Below the pieces are notes generated by a model. The model saw nothing but the letters and a program-made list of their open reading frames with translations. It made no database searches and was not told the DNA's origin. A stretch of 64,000 nucleotides of DNA from a bacterium (lineage in GTDB: Bacteria > Bdellovibrionota > Bacteriovoracia > Bacteriovoracales > Bacteriovoracaceae): NCBI GenBank assembly GCA_030425045.1, contig JAUHVL010000012.1, positions 1-64,000 of the forward strand, written 5' to 3'. Below, one piece after another: positions 22,568 through 30,441 of this stretch (within the stretch, counting starts at the first letter, position 1; the number at the start of each line of letters is the position of its first letter). Both the position numbers and the translations under genes were made by a program.

Positions 22568-23836
22568 ATGAAAAAGAGTCTTATTATTTCTTTATTTTTA
22601 ATTATTCTCATATCTTGTTCTCAAACAAAAAGTATACGCGAACCAGCATCTTTTACAGCAAGAGAAAACCGTTTACTCAGGTTACTTGAAAAAGGAAAAA
22701 TTGGAACGCGAGAATTTTTAGCAAAGCTGGTTGGAAAACTAAGAGTTGATCATGAAACATTACCAACTCCAACATGTCACGGACAAGAAATGAGACTTTA
22801 TGAAGAATGTGTGGGTGAGAATGAAGAAGAAATGGTTGAGGATTTTCTTGAGAGGTTGATGGCCGTACAAAGGGCCAATATGAATAGAAAAGATCATCGT
22901 GGACAAAAAGGAAAAATGGTTCGTGGCTTTCATGCTAAGGAGCATGCTTGTCTTAAAGGAGAGGTTACCATCAATTCATCTCAAGCTTTAGAACTACATC
23001 AAGGTGTATTTTCTAGGCCCGGGAAAAAGTATGAAGCTCTTATTCGATTTTCTAATGCAAAAGGAGTCAATACAAAAGACTTTAAGCCAGACTTAAGAGG
23101 AATGGCCGTAAAGTTTTTAGGTGTTGAAGGTGAGAGACTCGATCCCAGTTTGAAAGAAACGAATACCCAGGATTTTGTAATGTTTAACAAACCCACAACA
23201 ATAGGTTCTCATCCAAGAGAGGCGATGGAGTTCGCCGAAGCGCTTGCAAAGGGAAAAATGGCGACAGCGAAATATATGATTAAAAATACAAAAGTTGCCA
23301 TTGAACTTAATAAAGCTTTCTCTGTCACAAGAAGCTTGGCCACCGAAACGTTCTACAGTGCCGCTCCCTATGGACTTGGTAAGTATGGAGATTCAAAATA
23401 CCGAGCGATAAAATTTCAATTTAAACCATGCTCTCATAAAGAATATATTGAAAGAGGCAGAGGTTTTCGTTCTCAGGACTATTTAGAAAATAACTTATTG
23501 AAAAACCTCAAAGAACAGGATTTATGTTTTGATATAAATTTACAAGTTCAATCTGATGTTAGGTTAACACCTCTTGAAGATGGTGCTGTCGAATGGAGAG
23601 AGTCTGATTCTCCTTTTCAAAATATGGCCAGATTAATTATCCCAAAAGGACAAGACATCGAAAGTGATAAGTCAAAAAGCGAATGCAAAAATATGAGCTT
23701 TAATCCTTGGAATGGAATAAAAGAACATCGTCCTCTATCTGCTACCAATAGAGTGAGAAGATTGATTTATCAGCATAGTCTATTAAATAGACTGGAAAAT
23801 ACTCGGCAGATGCAGAGGGTTCCAGAGTCTCAATAA
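22568..23836 (+). CDS. Catalase-like haem lipoprotein (SrpA-type)
   Basis: 422 residues. Lipobox-like start SLFLIILISCSQ predicts a lipoprotein. The catalase-related domain (about 90-400) shows RGFHAKEHACLKG, where the His would lie over the haem, then RFSNAKGVNTKDFKPDLRGMAVKF and NTQDFVMFNKPTTIG. These fit the small catalase-related family, not full catalases. It may break down peroxides or form oxidised lipids at the envelope. The proximal-haem Tyr motif is not clear by eye; the RRLIYQ near the end is a candidate. Confidence 0.8.
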   Translation: MKKSLIISLFLIILISCSQTKSIREPASFTARENRLLRLLEKGKIGTREFLAKLVGKLRVDHETLPTPTCHGQEMRLYEECVGENEEEMVEDFLERLMAVQRANMNRKDHRGQKGKMVRGFHAKEHACLKGEVTINSSQALELHQGVFSRPGKKYEALIRFSNAKGVNTKDFKPDLRGMAVKFLGVEGERLDPSLKETNTQDFVMFNKPTTIGSHPREAMEFAEALAKGKMATAKYMIKNTKVAIELNKAFSVTRSLATETFYSAAPYGLGKYGDSKYRAIKFQFKPCSHKEYIERGRGFRSQDYLENNLLKNLKEQDLCFDINLQVQSDVRLTPLEDGAVEWRESDSPFQNMARLIIPKGQDIESDKSKSECKNMSFNPWNGIKEHRPLSATNRVRRLIYQHSLLNRLENTRQMQRVPESQ

Positions 23837-23869: not shown

Positions 23870-24727
23870 TTATTGAAAAATAACTTTATATTTATAGGCA
23901 GCATCTTTTTCGGATACATCGTTTAGCTTGACGACTTCCTTGAAAGAATTTCCAAATAAGGCCGGTAAGGCAGATATAACACCTGTGCGGTATGAGCATA
24001 TATACTGATTATCAATAAGGTTCTTTTTGTAGGTTTCTCTTAGCAACTCTTTTGCGTTGACTGAGAAGTATAACTCTTTGTGATTGATCATTGAAACTTG
24101 ATAGTCAAAATTTTCTTCAAAGTGAGTGATGAGATCGAGAAAGAAGTACTCATATAATTCGTGGATAGGGCGGCTTCGATAGTACTCGACTTTTTTTATA
24201 AAACTGTTTGTAGCGAGATTGATACAAGAAAATTGACCAACGTTATAGTAGTCAAGATCAAGATATTTTTTTAAGTACTCCGTTGTATCAACGATAAACT
24301 GAAGACTAACTTGTTGGTTTTTTTCTAAACAATCACGATCAAGCTGAAAGCTTTTGTAAAAGCTATTTAAAAGTGGTTCATTATCTCTAAAGTTAAATTT
24401 AATATAATCAATGATTGATTTCACAGATTGAGTTTTGCTATAAGGTGCAATTGATGTGTATTTTTCACATAGTGTTGACCTTTTAACTTTTAAAAAAGAT
24501 TTTACTTTTTTAAAGTCAACTTGGTTTTGCCTTAAAAGATCGATATCAACGTTTAGCTTTTCAGATAAATGGGAGATGTCTTTAAACTTTAAGTTTCTCG
24601 AATTGTTTAATACTTCAAGTAAGTTTGATTCTGACATTCCCAAAATAGATGCCATTTCACAATTTGATAGTTGTAGCTGTTCTTTAATGTTTTCAACAAG
24701 TTTTACTTCTTGAGTTGAATAAATCAC
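23870..24727 (-). CDS. Helix-turn-helix protein, probable regulator, C-terminal domain unknown
   Basis: 285 residues. The first 55 residues read as a HTH of XRE/Cro type (VENIKEQLQLSNCEMASILGMSESNLLEVLNNSRNL). The rest is a mixed alpha/beta region I cannot place. It overlaps the upstream gene by four bases (ATGA), so the two HTH genes form one coupled operon and may act as a pair. Divergent from the LuxI-like acyltransferase, which they may control. Confidence 0.75.
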   Translation of the reverse strand: MIYSTQEVKLVENIKEQLQLSNCEMASILGMSESNLLEVLNNSRNLKFKDISHLSEKLNVDIDLLRQNQVDFKKVKSFLKVKRSTLCEKYTSIAPYSKTQSVKSIIDYIKFNFRDNEPLLNSFYKSFQLDRDCLEKNQQVSLQFIVDTTEYLKKYLDLDYYNVGQFSCINLATNSFIKKVEYYRSRPIHELYEYFFLDLITHFEENFDYQVSMINHKELYFSVNAKELLRETYKKNLIDNQYICSYRTGVISALPALFGNSFKEVVKLNDVSEKDAAYKYKVIFQ

Positions 24728-25626
24728 AGTTCAACCTGATATAACCAACGACTATGTTTTGGGTCTGTATAGCTTTCCAAAATTTCAATTTTATGTGAAG
24801 TTTTATTATCTTCAATAAAATGATCAAGATACGAGTTGAGATAGTTTTTAAAATAGAGACCCTGGTAGTTTCCAACTTCTGGGTCTTTTAGATCCATATT
24901 ATCTATACATTTATTAGGCATTACAGAGATGAGTAAAGAGTTTTCATTCTTGTCATGAACTTCATAAAACTTATCAATTTCATATTTATTAGCATTTTCT
25001 ATGAGCTGCTCAATACTTTTAGCAGCTGAGACATTTTTCTTGTATTTATTTTCTAGACTGCCATGGATATTTTCCATTTGAAACATTGGCCGTAGTTCTT
25101 TTAGTGTCTTTTTATTTAAAATCTTTTTATCAATAAGCAATTTCGCCACGTCTAAATGATAGTTACCAGAAATAGGATTATCCATTTTGCAGAAATAGCA
25201 AATATCTACTTTTAAATTTTTAAAAAAATTAATCGCGTTATTATATCCCAACTTTTGAAAAACGAGCTCAATGATAGGTCTAGTCGACCTTGCACTTGAG
25301 CCGGGTAGTTTTGCATAACGGGAGGGAATTCTAAATTGATGTTGTGTTTTACCATCTATGGAAGATTTATTTTGTAATGGTTTTAATGAGTCAACATAAC
25401 CATAGGCCATATCATAAGTTGAAAGCTTAAATTCTCTCTGGATTATAACCCACGTTTTAAAATCTAAATCAAGTGTTCCATTTTCAAGTTTTGAAATCAT
25501 ACTTTGTGAGACATTTAATAGCTCGGCCATTTCACTTTGTTTGATTGAATTACTTTTTCTTAAATACCTTAGAAGTCTTCCTTGCGATTGGGAGTTATCT
25601 TTTTGGATAAATACATTTTCAGACAC
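24724..25626 (-). CDS. XRE-family transcriptional regulator with C-terminal sensor-like domain
   Basis: 300 residues. A clear XRE HTH lies at about 15-70: LLRYLRKSNSIKQSEMAELL, VSQSMISKLENG. The remaining 220 residues are unrecognised; they include a short CYFC pair at about residues 136-139 that could bind metal. It is the first gene of the pair and is divergent from the acyltransferase gene across 140 bases with two dyads. Confidence 0.82.
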   Translation of the reverse strand: MSENVFIQKDNSQSQGRLLRYLRKSNSIKQSEMAELLNVSQSMISKLENGTLDLDFKTWVIIQREFKLSTYDMAYGYVDSLKPLQNKSSIDGKTQHQFRIPSRYAKLPGSSARSTRPIIELVFQKLGYNNAINFFKNLKVDICYFCKMDNPISGNYHLDVAKLLIDKKILNKKTLKELRPMFQMENIHGSLENKYKKNVSAAKSIEQLIENANKYEIDKFYEVHDKNENSLLISVMPNKCIDNMDLKDPEVGNYQGLYFKNYLNSYLDHFIEDNKTSHKIEILESYTDPKHSRWLYQVEL

Positions 25627-25686
25627 TTTTCATTCCTTCATGTGAGTAATTTTTGTTTTTGCCAACATCGTCAGGAAAAATATACC

Positions 25687-25738
25687 TTACAAATAATCTA
25701 GATGTAAAACTAAGCTAGGATTCTAATAGTTAGTTTTA
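25687..25738. promoter_or_regulatory. Divergent control region with inverted repeats, candidate operators
   Basis: Two dyads lie between the XRE operon and the acyltransferase gene. One is a perfect 9-bp inverted repeat (TAAAACTAA at 25705-25713, TTAGTTTTA at 25730-25738). The other is TTACA/TGTAA (25687-25691, 25703-25707). Their position fits binding by the divergent XRE proteins, though no binding data exist. Confidence 0.45.
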
Positions 25739-25753
25739 TTCTGTTTGAAATAT

Positions 25754-25759
25754 GGAGGG
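25754..25759 (+). promoter_or_regulatory. Shine-Dalgarno that decides the acyltransferase start
   Basis: GGAGGG lies seven bases before TTG 25767. It falls inside the first codons of the frame that begins at ATG 25752, which argues for the TTG start. Confidence 0.55.
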
Positions 25760-25766
25760 TGTGAAA

Positions 25767-26519
25767 TTGAGTGTGTTAGTGTTTGAAAAGCCTAGTTATA
25801 AGTTATCTGTTGTCTATTTAAGTGACTTTTTGTCGCAAAGTGAAAAAAAAGAAGCTCAAGATTTTTTTAATGACTTGATTAAAATACGACAATTGGGATA
25901 TTGCAGCTCTTATCCAAAAGGCTTTGTTCCAGTCGATACGACTGATTTTGTTGCGGAGCTCTATCTAGTTTACTTAGAGCAAAACGGTGAACAAAAAGTT
26001 ATCTCTTGTTTAAGGCAGTTGCCATTATCACGTTTAGATTATCATAAACTAGACTGTCCATTATTTAGCACAATAAAAGAAAGTGGATCGACATTGCATT
26101 TAAAATTTTTAGAGTCGTTTTTAAAAGAATGTAAACAAAAGGATACTGAGGTGGTCTATAGTTCAAGATTTACTATCGATCCAAGTGTTAAAGATAAGAA
26201 GTTGAGAACAGAAATTAAAGAAATCATGGCCTCAATCACTTATCTTGATCAGATTAAAAGTAGATCCATTACCATGACGGGTTGTGTTCCAAAATACAAA
26301 ACTGACTTTACCTTTAAAAAGTGGGGATATGATTTTGTTAAACATAACAATCAAGAGCTTCCTTCTTTTGAAAAAGTTTCAGCTGGAAAAGAAGAGATAA
26401 AGTTAATGTATATGTTGGAAGGTTCTGACTATGGAAAAAGCTGTTTCGAAAAACATAGAATACTTTTTGAAAAGATGAGAAAAATTTCAACTGAAGAAGC
26501 TGTTCATTACGTCGCATAA
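25767..26519 (+). CDS. LuxI/GNAT-like N-acyltransferase (autoinducer-synthase-like)
   Basis: About 250 residues. The fold reads as GNAT of the acyl-homoserine-lactone synthase type. The Asp pair DTTD (about 57-60), strand YLVYLEQNG-KVISCLRQLP with its Arg (about 83), and YSSRFTID (about 131-138, where LuxI has ExSRF) appear in LuxI order. The LuxI Glu is replaced by Tyr, and an insertion of about 17 residues sits before SRF. Such enzymes join an acyl group from acyl-ACP to SAM or an amino acid. Start: TTG 25767 has GGAGGG at ideal spacing; the ATG at 25752 encloses that site and has none of its own. Substrate and product are unknown. Confidence 0.65.
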   Translation: MSVLVFEKPSYKLSVVYLSDFLSQSEKKEAQDFFNDLIKIRQLGYCSSYPKGFVPVDTTDFVAELYLVYLEQNGEQKVISCLRQLPLSRLDYHKLDCPLFSTIKESGSTLHLKFLESFLKECKQKDTEVVYSSRFTIDPSVKDKKLRTEIKEIMASITYLDQIKSRSITMTGCVPKYKTDFTFKKWGYDFVKHNNQELPSFEKVSAGKEEIKLMYMLEGSDYGKSCFEKHRILFEKMRKISTEEAVHYVA

Positions 26520-26533
26520 ATTAGGAGGATTTC

Positions 26534-27343
26534 ATGCAACAAACCAATTATATTCTTGAGAAAGAAGATGAGTTTGATCGATTAGAGTATCAATCAACAT
26601 TACCTAAGTATGACTTTAAAAAAGAGTTTATGGAATTTCATGCTGAAAAAAATCAATATATTTTAGATGCTGGATCAGGCTCAGGTATCGTATCTCGTTA
26701 TTTTGCAGAGGTTTTTCCTAAAACAAATTTTAAAGGGGTTGATTTTTCAAACGATCGTGTTGAAAAAGCAAACTCTAAGGCCAAAGAGTTTAATAATTTA
26801 TGTTTTGAACAGGGGGACCTTTCAGATTTAACAATAGATGATGAAACTTTTGATGCTTGCATTAGCCGGTATGTGCTTGAGCATATTCCACCTGAGAAAG
26901 TTCAAAATGTCGTGAATGAAATATATAGAGTATTAAAACCGGGAGCTCGATTTTACGCTGTTGACTTTGATGGACCACTTTATAATATTTATCCTCAGAC
27001 ACCTTTAATGGAAAAGGCCTTGAGAATCTTTCGAGATAAAAGTAATGTTGATTTAAGAGTAGGTAGAAAAATGCCTTATCTTTTAAGCGAAAGTGGTTTT
27101 ACCAATGTTACTCATCGTATTGAAACAGTTGATTGTCAGGGTCCACTCATGGAAGATGAAAAATCACTATGGCCAGATAAGTTAGATCGCCTTATGGAGT
27201 TTATGACGATGCACTTAGGTAGTGAGGTAGAGGCAAAGCAATTTAAAGAAGATTATATAAAAACCCTTGATCATCCCGGTGTCGTTCTTTTTTATAATAA
27301 ATTTACGGTAATTGGGGAAAAACCTAGATTGAATTTAGTATAA
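26534..27343 (+). CDS. Class I SAM-dependent methyltransferase
   Basis: 269 residues with AGGAGGA just before the ATG. Motif I is ILDAGSGSGIVSRYFAE (about 44-60), then GVDFSND and the catalytic-region strand CISRYVLEHIPPEKV. It follows the acyltransferase by 14 bases, so both are likely in one transcript. It may methylate the acyltransferase product or a regulator; this is inference. UbiE/BioC-like by pattern, but no quinone or biotin genes are nearby. Confidence 0.85.
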   Translation: MQQTNYILEKEDEFDRLEYQSTLPKYDFKKEFMEFHAEKNQYILDAGSGSGIVSRYFAEVFPKTNFKGVDFSNDRVEKANSKAKEFNNLCFEQGDLSDLTIDDETFDACISRYVLEHIPPEKVQNVVNEIYRVLKPGARFYAVDFDGPLYNIYPQTPLMEKALRIFRDKSNVDLRVGRKMPYLLSESGFTNVTHRIETVDCQGPLMEDEKSLWPDKLDRLMEFMTMHLGSEVEAKQFKEDYIKTLDHPGVVLFYNKFTVIGEKPRLNLV

Positions 27344-27347
27344 CTTT

Positions 27348-28226
27348 CTAATTCAAGGAGAAATTTGCTGAGTCAACTCTTTCTCCTTGAATATCATTTT
27401 TATTTAACTCTTCGATAAAGCAATCTAGAGTTTGGTTAAAGAAAGAGGGGTTCTCTACTTGAGGTGTGTGACCTGAGCTTTGATCTATAATAATATTTTC
27501 TTGCCATTTATTTTTAGTCGCTAAATCGAAGATATACTTCCCATTAATTAAAACATCATTTGGACAAACGAGGATTTTAAACTTCAATTTATTTTGATTA
27601 AGAATCTCTACCTCATTAAGAACTTCATTATTAAAAACAGAGTTTGCAATATCGACTCTGACTTTAGGGTGAGTGTTTTTTATTGATGTTGAAAGCTCTG
27701 ATTCTTGAATGAAGTCTTCTTTATAAAGACAGTTATTCATCAGAGAAATTTCTTTATCACTTAATTTTTCTTGAAAAAAACCTGAAGCTGCTTCATTGGG
27801 GTGGAAGGCCTTAGAGAAGTCACTTGCCGAACCGACAGGAGGAGCACCAAAAAGGAAAATACCTTTAATGAGAGGACTGATTTTTCCTGCAAGAAGTGGC
27901 GTCGTAAGATGACCTCCCAAACTATGTCCGACTATAATGAGATTTTTTAGCTCAAGAGTTATGACAAAGTTCTCTATCAATGATGTAAAGTAGGGAAGGG
28001 AGTAGTTGTTTGCAATATTATAATTAGAATTTCCATGCCCAGGTAGATCGATGGCCACTAATCTATACTTGGTTGTAAGCTCACTAGAGAATTGAAACTT
28101 AAAGAAGTTAGAATTTAGAGAATTCCCGTGGATAAATAGGATTGCCTTCCTGTGATCGCCCTTACTATTTACCGAATCCCAGTAGGATACTTCGTCATTG
28201 TCTATTTGAACGTTTTTTATACTCAT
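27348..28226 (-). CDS. Alpha/beta-fold hydrolase
   Basis: 292 residues. The oxyanion strand is AILFIHGNSLNS and the nucleophile is Ser in IVGHSLGGH (about 116-124). The acid is probably Asp in VCPNDVLI, and the His is in SSGHTPQVENP near the C terminus. There is no signal peptide, so it is cytoplasmic. Some alpha/beta hydrolases cut acyl-homoserine lactones; next to a LuxI-like gene that is a reasonable guess. Convergent with the methyltransferase, four bases apart. Confidence 0.86.
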   Translation of the reverse strand: MSIKNVQIDNDEVSYWDSVNSKGDHRKAILFIHGNSLNSNFFKFQFSSELTTKYRLVAIDLPGHGNSNYNIANNYSLPYFTSLIENFVITLELKNLIIVGHSLGGHLTTPLLAGKISPLIKGIFLFGAPPVGSASDFSKAFHPNEAASGFFQEKLSDKEISLMNNCLYKEDFIQESELSTSIKNTHPKVRVDIANSVFNNEVLNEVEILNQNKLKFKILVCPNDVLINGKYIFDLATKNKWQENIIIDQSSGHTPQVENPSFFNQTLDCFIEELNKNDIQGERVDSANFSLN

Positions 28227-28331
28227 CTTTGATGACTATCCTAATCGAAGAAGTTTGGCCATGAGGACAAAATTATTACAATTGCAGCTAAAGTTATTGT
28301 AAAAACAGTACTTTATGGTATCGCAGATTTG

Positions 28332-28393
28332 GCTTGCCATGTCTTGTATATTCTCAATAGAATAATATTTAATAATTCTAAGACAGGGCAAGC
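28332..28393. repeat. Imperfect inverted repeat in kinase leader
   Basis: GCTTGCCATGTCTT (28332-28345) and AAGACAGGGCAAGC (28380-28393) match at 13 of 14 bases as inverted arms. The 34-base spacer contains a second stem, TATTCT CAAT AGAATA (28349-28364). It lies 30 bases before the hybrid kinase start and could be an operator or a leader-RNA structure. Confidence 0.6.
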
Positions 28394-28422
28394 ATATCAT
28401 AGAAAGAGACTACATACCGTTA

Positions 28423-30441
28423 ATGGAATATTCGGTAAAACATAATCAAAGCACAAGAGAGTTAGCCTACTTATTGTTAACAGGCCAAGCACCATTTTTA
28501 TCAATCCTCAATTTAGAGGGAGTTTTTCTTGGAAATATTTGGCTTTCAAGTTTTTCAAAGCTTAATGTTGATATAGATTTCTCAGACTCTATAGAAATGC
28601 TCATTGATAAATATCCAGCTCTCCTTGAGATTAGTCACTTTATCACTTTTGATGAAGATTACGACAAAAGGGATTTGGAAAGTTATAAAGAAACAATTAT
28701 CCCCGTCATTGATAAAAATAAAGTTTACTTGGGTTATATTAATCAAAAGCAAGTGTGTTATTACAAGTTTCAAAAAAAACTAAATATGATGTCATCAGAT
28801 AAATTGCTCAACATTCTAATTGTTGATGACGAAGTTCACCTTTTAAATTCATTAAGTGAAATACTTGAAGATTCTGGTTATCGTTGTATCTTGGCCAAAA
28901 ATGGAAGGGAGGCCCTCGAAAAGCTCAATGCTCATACAAACATTCAACTAATTTTAACTGATATTAAAATGCCTGAAATGGATGGCAAAGAATTTATTCA
29001 ACAAGTTCGTGAAAATAATTTTAAAATCCCCATTATCGTATTGTCAGCATTTGGAACAAATGAAGAAGTGATAGATTGTTTAAAGCTTGGGGCCAACGAT
29101 TTTTTAAATAAACCTTTTACAATTGATCTTCTTGAGCATTCTATTAAAAAAAGAGAAAAGGTTATTAAACTTGACGCTAGGGAAAGAAACCTTGCTAAGA
29201 TTCAAAGTATTTTAAGTCAAGCGGGAATTATTCTTTCTGACTCAAGTGAAGTTTTACATGAGAAGTTGAATTCACTCGTGGTTGAGATCTCTAAAAGTTT
29301 AGACTGTAGAGTTGTTTCTTTTATAACAAAAGAGATTGATTCTTGGAATATATTGGCTTCAACGAATAATAAGATTCACACAAAAAGAATACCATTTGAA
29401 GATGCTCCTATATTAGAAAATGTATTAGAGAAGCCTAGAGTTCTTATAACAAGCTCGATAGAGGAATTGTCGATCTTTCGAGCTGCCGGTGAGAATAATT
29501 ATTTATCGAATTCCTCGATGATATTTCCTATTTTTAGAAATGGTTTTTTATATGCCTTATTATGTTGCTCCGATAAAAATGGACGATTAAATTTTGACCG
29601 AAGTGATTCTTTTATAGCAAATTCAATTATTAATCCTTTAAGTTATTTGATCGATTATGCTTTTATTCAAAATGAGCTAAGTAACCTAAATAAAAACTTA
29701 AAAGATGAAGCAAAACAAATGGCCAAAGAAATTATCGAACTTGAGAAAGAATCTGAGTTCAACTCAAGGCTCGCTCTTATCGGTGAAACAGCATCTTCTA
29801 TTGCTCATGATATTAAAAATCCTTTGACTATTGCGATGGGAAATATTGAAGCGATAAATAAGAAGTTTGATATTTGCGAAGATATGGAAAAGAGACTTTC
29901 TAAAGTTCATCTTGCTCTTTCAAGTATCTCAAGAATTACCAATTCTATAACGAAGCTTTCCCACTACAGTCTAGAGGAAGGCAGTTTTGAGTTAAAAGAA
30001 ACCATTGAAAATTCTTTAGTCATGATTGAGTCAAAACTAAAAGAACACTCTATTGAGTTAAAAGTAAATGATTTTAAAAACTGCATAGTCAACGGTAATC
30101 AAATTCAAATTGAGCAAGTCATTATCAATCTCGTGTCAAATGCTATCGATGCCATTAAAGATCAAGTCACTAAAAGAATCTATATTGATGTTACCCTTGA
30201 GAGCAGTAATTCGATTAAAATTTCAATTTTAGATAATGGACCAGGTATTCCTCTTGAAGTAGAAAAAAATATTTTTAATAAATGGTTTACCACAAAAAAA
30301 ATCGGTGAAGGTACGGGACTCGGCCTTCATATCTGTAAAAAAATTATAGAGGCCCACTTAAGTGAGTTAAAGTATCGACAAACAGAGCAAGGGCTAAGTG
30401 AGTTTAGTTTTAGTTTATGTTTGAGTTGTGAGTCTTCTTAA
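28423..30441 (+). CDS. Hybrid histidine kinase: CBS-like, receiver, GAF, HisKA, HATPase
   Basis: 672 residues, soluble (no membrane helix seen). A degenerate CBS-like pair occupies about 1-118 (TRELAYLLLTG...LGNIWLSS and TIIPVIDKNKVYLGYINQ). The receiver is at 128-245, with phospho-Asp in LILTDIKMPEMDG (about 180) and Lys about 230. A GAF-like region spans about 255-415, then a coiled coil. HisKA follows with the His in SSIAHDIKNPLT (about 462), and HATPase with DNGPGIP and GTGLGLH. The receiver comes before the kinase, unlike usual hybrids. No matching regulator is next to it, so output may go through a distant partner. ATG 28423 has no good Shine-Dalgarno. Confidence 0.88.
   Translation: MEYSVKHNQSTRELAYLLLTGQAPFLSILNLEGVFLGNIWLSSFSKLNVDIDFSDSIEMLIDKYPALLEISHFITFDEDYDKRDLESYKETIIPVIDKNKVYLGYINQKQVCYYKFQKKLNMMSSDKLLNILIVDDEVHLLNSLSEILEDSGYRCILAKNGREALEKLNAHTNIQLILTDIKMPEMDGKEFIQQVRENNFKIPIIVLSAFGTNEEVIDCLKLGANDFLNKPFTIDLLEHSIKKREKVIKLDARERNLAKIQSILSQAGIILSDSSEVLHEKLNSLVVEISKSLDCRVVSFITKEIDSWNILASTNNKIHTKRIPFEDAPILENVLEKPRVLITSSIEELSIFRAAGENNYLSNSSMIFPIFRNGFLYALLCCSDKNGRLNFDRSDSFIANSIINPLSYLIDYAFIQNELSNLNKNLKDEAKQMAKEIIELEKESEFNSRLALIGETASSIAHDIKNPLTIAMGNIEAINKKFDICEDMEKRLSKVHLALSSISRITNSITKLSHYSLEEGSFELKETIENSLVMIESKLKEHSIELKVNDFKNCIVNGNQIQIEQVIINLVSNAIDAIKDQVTKRIYIDVTLESSNSIKISILDNGPGIPLEVEKNIFNKWFTTKKIGEGTGLGLHICKKIIEAHLSELKYRQTEQGLSEFSFSLCLSCESS

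Follow-up and report, generated by a model that had tools for sequence, protein, structure and literature searches.

Can a bacterium of the Bacteriovoracaceae make and sense an acylated signal with genes that do not form a classical LuxI/LuxR pair? The question is raised by a locus in a 64-kb stretch of DNA, called the window here (contig 37 of a 3.97 Mb genome that is 99.9% complete), in which two helix-turn-helix (HTH) regulators, a divergently transcribed acyltransferase (ACT), a methyltransferase and an alpha/beta hydrolase are encoded side by side. An earlier note, made from the letters of the window, had seen in these genes and in a neighbouring hybrid sensor kinase a signalling island with a LuxI-like synthase. 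The cassette is established by computation, and its most likely role is the making, sensing and removal of an acylated signal that we infer. That it is a system for signalling between cells, or of a cell to itself, with a synthase of the LuxI/FeeM fold, is the reading that we favour, with some reserve.

The acyltransferase and its conserved neighbours

ACT, a putative signal synthase of 255 residues, is encoded at 25752..26519 on the forward strand; the true translation start may sit slightly downstream of 25752, because the model has low confidence for the N-terminal ~12 residues. The two regulator genes diverge from it, and 14 nt after its end, on the same strand, starts the gene of a class I S-adenosylmethionine-dependent methyltransferase (26534..27343), likely a tailoring enzyme. 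The alpha/beta hydrolase (27348..28226, reverse strand) is a putative esterase or amidase that likely removes or demodifies the signal. This layout is that of the earlier note, all six open reading frames of which, the kinase included, were recovered by ORF calling at the same positions and on the same strands. Its domain calls hold as well: the methyltransferase matches at E 9e-22, the hydrolase at E 3e-12, and the kinase carries response regulator, GAF, HisKA and HATPase domains. Pfam and NCBIfam name these domains and those of the HTH proteins, and give no credible family for ACT.

ACT is a real, fast-evolving family. Relatives were found by protein search in 46/129 genomes of the bacterial family and, with a profile of 40 rows, in 51/129 genomes of the class and 96/369 of the phylum. 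The named genomes with ACT-related loci are metagenome-assembled genomes of Bacteriovoracaceae and Halobacteriovoraceae, and the phylum-wide matches include complete genomes of another family, apparently of Bdellovibrio type. With the window ACT, members from related genomes typically share 15-29% identity, and often only ~20-25%. A scan of genome contigs with this single protein found no relatives, the divergence being too great, and a profile built from 22 members gave no usable pattern, while a closer subset did work. Such strong divergence between genomes fits a change of signal specificity.

Open reading frames were called in 59 ACT loci and the neighbours were clustered. In 54 of the 59 loci, one or two regulators of a single family are encoded no more than 7 genes from ACT; 49 loci have one directly adjacent to it and 40 have two copies. 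Of the same 59 loci, 35 also encode an alpha/beta hydrolase. At L062:9892-11517 (reverse strand), one open reading frame of 541 amino acids fuses the hydrolase to an HTH2-type regulator. A methyltransferase is found in 32/59 loci and a ThiF/E1-like enzyme in 20/59, the two together in none (Fisher p 3e-10, uncorrected for ancestry). The best ACT tree has 7 switches between these enzymes, one of which separates L057 from L059, two loci with 59% identity between their synthases. When the swap was put to an independent-pairs test, just two pairs fell on branches with good support, which is not enough to reach significance, so that the exclusivity rests on the raw counts and the switches. The methyltransferase is thus a member of the cassette, as the earlier note had it, albeit an optional one that the ThiF/E1-like enzyme replaces elsewhere. 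The order and orientation of the genes vary widely between loci, so the conservation of synthase, regulators, hydrolase and methyltransferase together in related genomes is not merely frozen synteny.

Other enzymes recur in places. ThiF/E1-like and cysteine-synthase-like (PALP) genes adjoin ACT, mostly divergent from it, in L117-L120, L111 and L032. PALP accompanies ThiF in five of the Bdellovibrio-type loci and in one locus of the class (L032). Adjoining ACT at L049:8454-9677 is a gene with a product that ends in -AA and is similar to MslH, a lasso-peptide epimerase (E 4e-17, far under the cut-off). At L137:5841-7790, a ThiF gene and the gene that follows it jointly match the fused family PRK14852 (E 1e-80); a distant ACT is present in the same genome.

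Predicted fold of the acyltransferase

The AlphaFold2 model of ACT, built with 8 sequences, has a mean predicted local distance difference test score (pLDDT) of 82 and a predicted template modelling score (pTM) of 0.81. Foldseek retrieves GNATs with it, EsaI, MesI, FeeM, BjaI and LasI being within the top 20. VIA-align places RpaI at the top (Z 15.8, 200 residues aligned, root-mean-square deviation (rmsd) 3.3), followed by BjaI (Z 15.4), FeeM (Z 14.9, 173 aligned, rmsd 2.7) and LasI (Z 14.5), whereas ordinary GNATs reach Z <=14.0 across ~140 residues. Since Z differences of ~1 are treated as ties, the claim is limited to this: the predicted fold is certainly that of a GNAT, and ACT probably belongs on the LuxI/FeeM side of the superfamily. 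Of the two outcomes that the earlier note had named as refuting it, a fold other than GNAT/LuxI and neighbours not conserved together, neither was obtained: structure prediction returned a GNAT fold, with acyl-homoserine lactone (AHL) synthases as the best matches.

Positions K/R46, G49, Y/F50, D65, K/R88, G192 and the C-terminal Ala are invariant or nearly so in the family. The motifs that had been read in LuxI order stand in part. The DxxD (D62, D65) and a basic residue (R88) in the strand that follows hold family-wide, D65 occurring in 100% of members, D62 in 81%, and K or R at position 88 throughout. The SRF is not a family motif, because only ~2% of members carry the Arg of position 139; the window protein diverges here from its own family, as it does at L70, where 93% carry His.

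ACT is like the LuxI AHL synthases (RpaI, BjaI, LasI, EsaI, TraI; PF00765) in a predicted fold that extends over nearly its whole length (Z 12-16), in the DxxD with its following basic residue and in clustering with a regulator gene. It is unlike them in being longer and in its linkage to a methyltransferase or ThiF enzyme plus a hydrolase. The N-acyl amino acid synthase FeeM is likewise similar in fold, a likeness that would account for a product with a free carboxylate, but ACT has no sequence match to it and stands in a different gene context.

The paired regulators

HTH1 (23870..24727) and HTH2 (24724..25626), both on the reverse strand, are coupled by a 4-nt overlap (24724-24727), as had been noted earlier; 33/42 adjacent same-strand HTH pairs in related loci also overlap or abut. 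HTH2 has a canonical XRE HTH (HTH_3, E 2e-9). It is a paralogue of HTH1: with hhalign it aligns to the HTH1 family (probability 97%, E 1.5e-11) through the HTH and the initial portion of the sensor domain. In the AlphaFold2 model of HTH1 (pLDDT 84, pTM 0.64), an N-terminal XRE-type HTH (residues ~10-65) is followed by a C-terminal domain, predicted to share the H-NOX/V4R/Bet3 fold. Its residues 97-285 correspond to H-NOX 1-184 end to end, with Z ~14, and the next matches are to TRAPP Bet3 at Z ~10, the palmitoylated form included; the likeness to the superfamily takes in the complete domain (Z 9-14). V4R itself (PF02830) matches a Bdellovibrio-type regulator of L117 (23.3 bits, E 7e-5), below the 31-bit cut-off, and no window protein at E 1. 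The earlier note had placed XRE-type proteins where LuxR would be expected. This is borne out: the regulators adjoining ACT are of XRE type, no LuxR with an autoinducer-binding domain being adjacent to it, and HTH1 is further predicted to have this sensor fold. Full-length copies of both regulator types occur only at this locus in the source genome.

The H-NOX/Bet3 superfamily binds heme or fatty acyl chains. Unlike their relatives, the present regulators are joined to an XRE HTH and lack the residues expected for heme: the YxSxR motif is found in 0/54 regulators, and no His column exceeds 43% among them, the highest being position 272, near the C-terminus. Heme sensing was rejected on these grounds. 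Because the motif is absent throughout and no His is conserved at the heme-ligand position, the ligand would rather be a small hydrophobic molecule.

Regulators are also found away from a synthase. The pair and the hydrolase lack one in genome G005 and at a second, separate site in G010, and pairs stand by themselves, with neither synthase nor hydrolase, in G036 and G065. Candidate solo receptor pairs lie at L139:5942-8520, L140:6056-8517, L142:5198-6875 and L143:4509-6361, two of which adjoin a hydrolase. In standing without a synthase, such pairs are like LuxR solos. The system resembles LuxI-LuxR pairs and LuxR solos in that its regulators are tied to the synthase and have solo copies in synthase-free genomes; it differs in that the regulator domains are unrelated to LuxR and usually form a tandem pair.

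A degron-like C-terminus

The last two codons of ACT (26511..26516, forward strand) specify Val-Ala, an instance of the C-terminal -[AV]A, resembling a ClpXP degron, that is common to the family. Among the ACT C-termini, 49/59 (83%) close with an Ala that is preceded by a small or aliphatic residue, and 33/59 (56%) end in AA, as against an Ala end in 29/481 (6%) and an AA end in 10/481 (2%) of the other neighbour proteins. The rest of the tail is variable in length and sequence. Partners ending in Ala comprise ThiF (12/20) and some other ACT-linked enzymes; the counts for methyltransferases and ABH-group hydrolases are 1/32 and 0/14. In L117-L120, L111 and L032, an -AA or -VA end is shared by most ThiF proteins and by one PALP.

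The ClpXP degron of CtrA ends DPNEQVNAA (PMC8138137). The C-terminal -AA of ACT proteins is like the -AA degrons of CtrA and ssrA, and a ClpX gene is present in the source genome; ACT may be turned over by ClpXP. Four of the seven aligned AHL synthases also end in -[AV]A, namely those of L128, L131, L132 and L133 (LPLAA, DQAA, KEVA and RSAA), which are plasmid-borne. Tails that resemble degrons may therefore be widespread among LuxI-type enzymes as well.

A proposed pathway and its rivals

It is proposed that ACT would join an acyl chain, taken from acyl-coenzyme A or acyl carrier protein, to an amino compound. The methyltransferase, or the ThiF/E1-like enzyme in other lineages, would then modify the product, perhaps capping a carboxylate. 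Methylation (giving a methyl ester) and E1-type activation (giving an acyl-adenylate) can both target a carboxylate, and since one enzyme takes the other's place, a common target group on the product is suggested. Guided by the likeness to FeeM, one may speculate that this shared target is the carboxylate of an N-acyl amino acid. The paired XRE regulators, with the product bound in a pocket of H-NOX/Bet3 type, would govern the locus and their other targets, while the hydrolase would take off the modification or remove the signal. ClpXP, reading the -[AV]A tail, would keep ACT short-lived, so that signal output would track transcription closely. A single diffusible signal would in this way be made, modified, destroyed and sensed by the cassette; the earlier note had supposed this of one signal. 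The fullest form of the proposal is a new autoinducer class across the predatory Bdellovibrionota, with a LuxI-fold synthase pulsed by ClpXP, a non-AHL acylated signal (for example a carboxylate-capped N-acyl amino acid), tandem receptors of XRE-H-NOX fold and a dedicated hydrolase as eraser; we hold this to be somewhat short of an even chance.

Several observations weigh against a signal synthase of the LuxI/FeeM type. EsaI stands below GNATs for polyamines and agmatine when Foldseek matches are ranked by E-value. Sequence profiles give no link between ACT and LuxI, PF00765 matching 0/40 members, and hhalign of ACT against seven AHL synthases is collinear but weak (probability 3.7%, E 0.011); weak as it is, this alignment speaks for a likeness, with D62xxD65 set against the DxxD of LuxI and the window protein's SSRF against ESSRF. 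The Glu and Arg of the catalytic ExxR, invariant in the seven synthases, are not conserved across the ACT family, and the window ACT is without the near-invariant H70. A feedback-regulated lipid or metabolite pathway, moreover, would look alike. In the absence of a profile match and of the conserved ExxR pair, ACT was rejected as an AHL synthase belonging to PF00765. The GNAT model PF13444 matches one of the 40 members (E 0.0099), and when the ACT profile was searched against PDB sequences, a chance match was all that came up. The LuxI profile has no match in the source genome, but its controls were silent too and the result is not used as evidence.

These points leave three other explanations to be weighed against a signalling cassette. 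ACT might be an ordinary GNAT acetyltransferase acting on proteins, polyamines or drugs, with neighbours that form a loose regulon. Its membership of the superfamily is certain, and some polyamine N-acetyltransferases come first by Foldseek E-value; yet the AHL synthases and FeeM align longer and better, the DxxD and basic residue are conserved as in LuxI and the linkage to sensor-regulators is strict, all of which makes this explanation improbable. An intracellular pathway for an acyl lipid or secondary metabolite, such as an N-acyl amino acid or aminolipid, deserves more weight, even if we think it unlikely. Here the H-NOX/Bet3-fold proteins would be feedback regulators that sense an acyl intermediate, with no exchange between cells. 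Such a pathway would be consistent with FeeM among the top structural matches, with tailoring genes (methyltransferase, ThiF, PALP, acyl-CoA dehydrogenase) and with the binding of fatty acyl chains by Bet3 relatives (6aq3). However, very rapid divergence and patchy presence within one group are more readily explained by a signal than by a housekeeping lipid, as are solo receptor pairs without a synthase and the degron-like tail.

ThiF/E1-like partners also occur in CBASS-type operons, and the E1-E2 and HTH models of PADLOC match the ThiF and HTH domains, as would be expected if the cassette were a defence system. These matches are limited to shared, generic domains, ThiF is optional, and the recurrent neighbours include no effector from any known system, whether nuclease, cyclase or other. 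The defence reading was rejected, and we find it very hard to credit.

Features around the cassette

The hybrid histidine kinase (28423..30441, forward strand; REC-GAF-HisKA-HATPase) had been counted among the signalling genes, but it is a neighbour outside the conserved cassette. A member of its generic cluster lies within 7 genes of ACT in 24/59 loci, which is above the density of the source genome (33 HATPase domains in 3.97 Mb). It was rejected as a core member given this count, its variable position and the abundance of kinases in the genome. In L111 and L117-L119, loci of Bdellovibrio type, the kinase gene directly adjoins PALP.

The divergent dyads that had been described fare no better. 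The sole one in the gap between HTH2 and ACT is an inverted repeat at 25705..25738 (9-nt arms at 25705-25713 and 25730-25738, TAAAACTAA-16-TTAGTTTTA), which arises in 4% of shuffles and is a weak operator candidate. Upstream of ACT in relatives there is no excess of dyads (mean arm 6.5 vs 6.3 in shuffles), and an operator search found no conserved dyad there. On the other side of the cassette, 22568-23836 encodes a probable lipoprotein with a weak match to the catalase core (PF00199, E 1e-4); it is not co-conserved.

Implications

Our search, with subscription papers outside its reach, found no paper that describes such a cassette, links LuxI-like enzymes to receptors of XRE, V4R or H-NOX type or reports a signal synthase for Bdellovibrio and its relatives. 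An in silico survey lists Bacteriovorax marinus only as a 'listener' for autoinducer-2 (PMC11069264). A classical LuxI is present in Micavibrio, a predator that is not related to this group (PMC3189940). There is a fair chance that the cassette, as an acyl-signal synthase with its cognate regulator, represents a new class of signal system. If this is true, quorum sensing gains a receptor type in which an HTH is combined with an H-NOX/Bet3 fold, and the tail of ACT suggests that acyl-signal synthases can be built to be short-lived. Predators of the Bdellovibrio group may exchange an undescribed chemical signal, and the presence of the cassette in about a quarter of the sampled genomes of the phylum would make signalling between intracellular predators directly testable.

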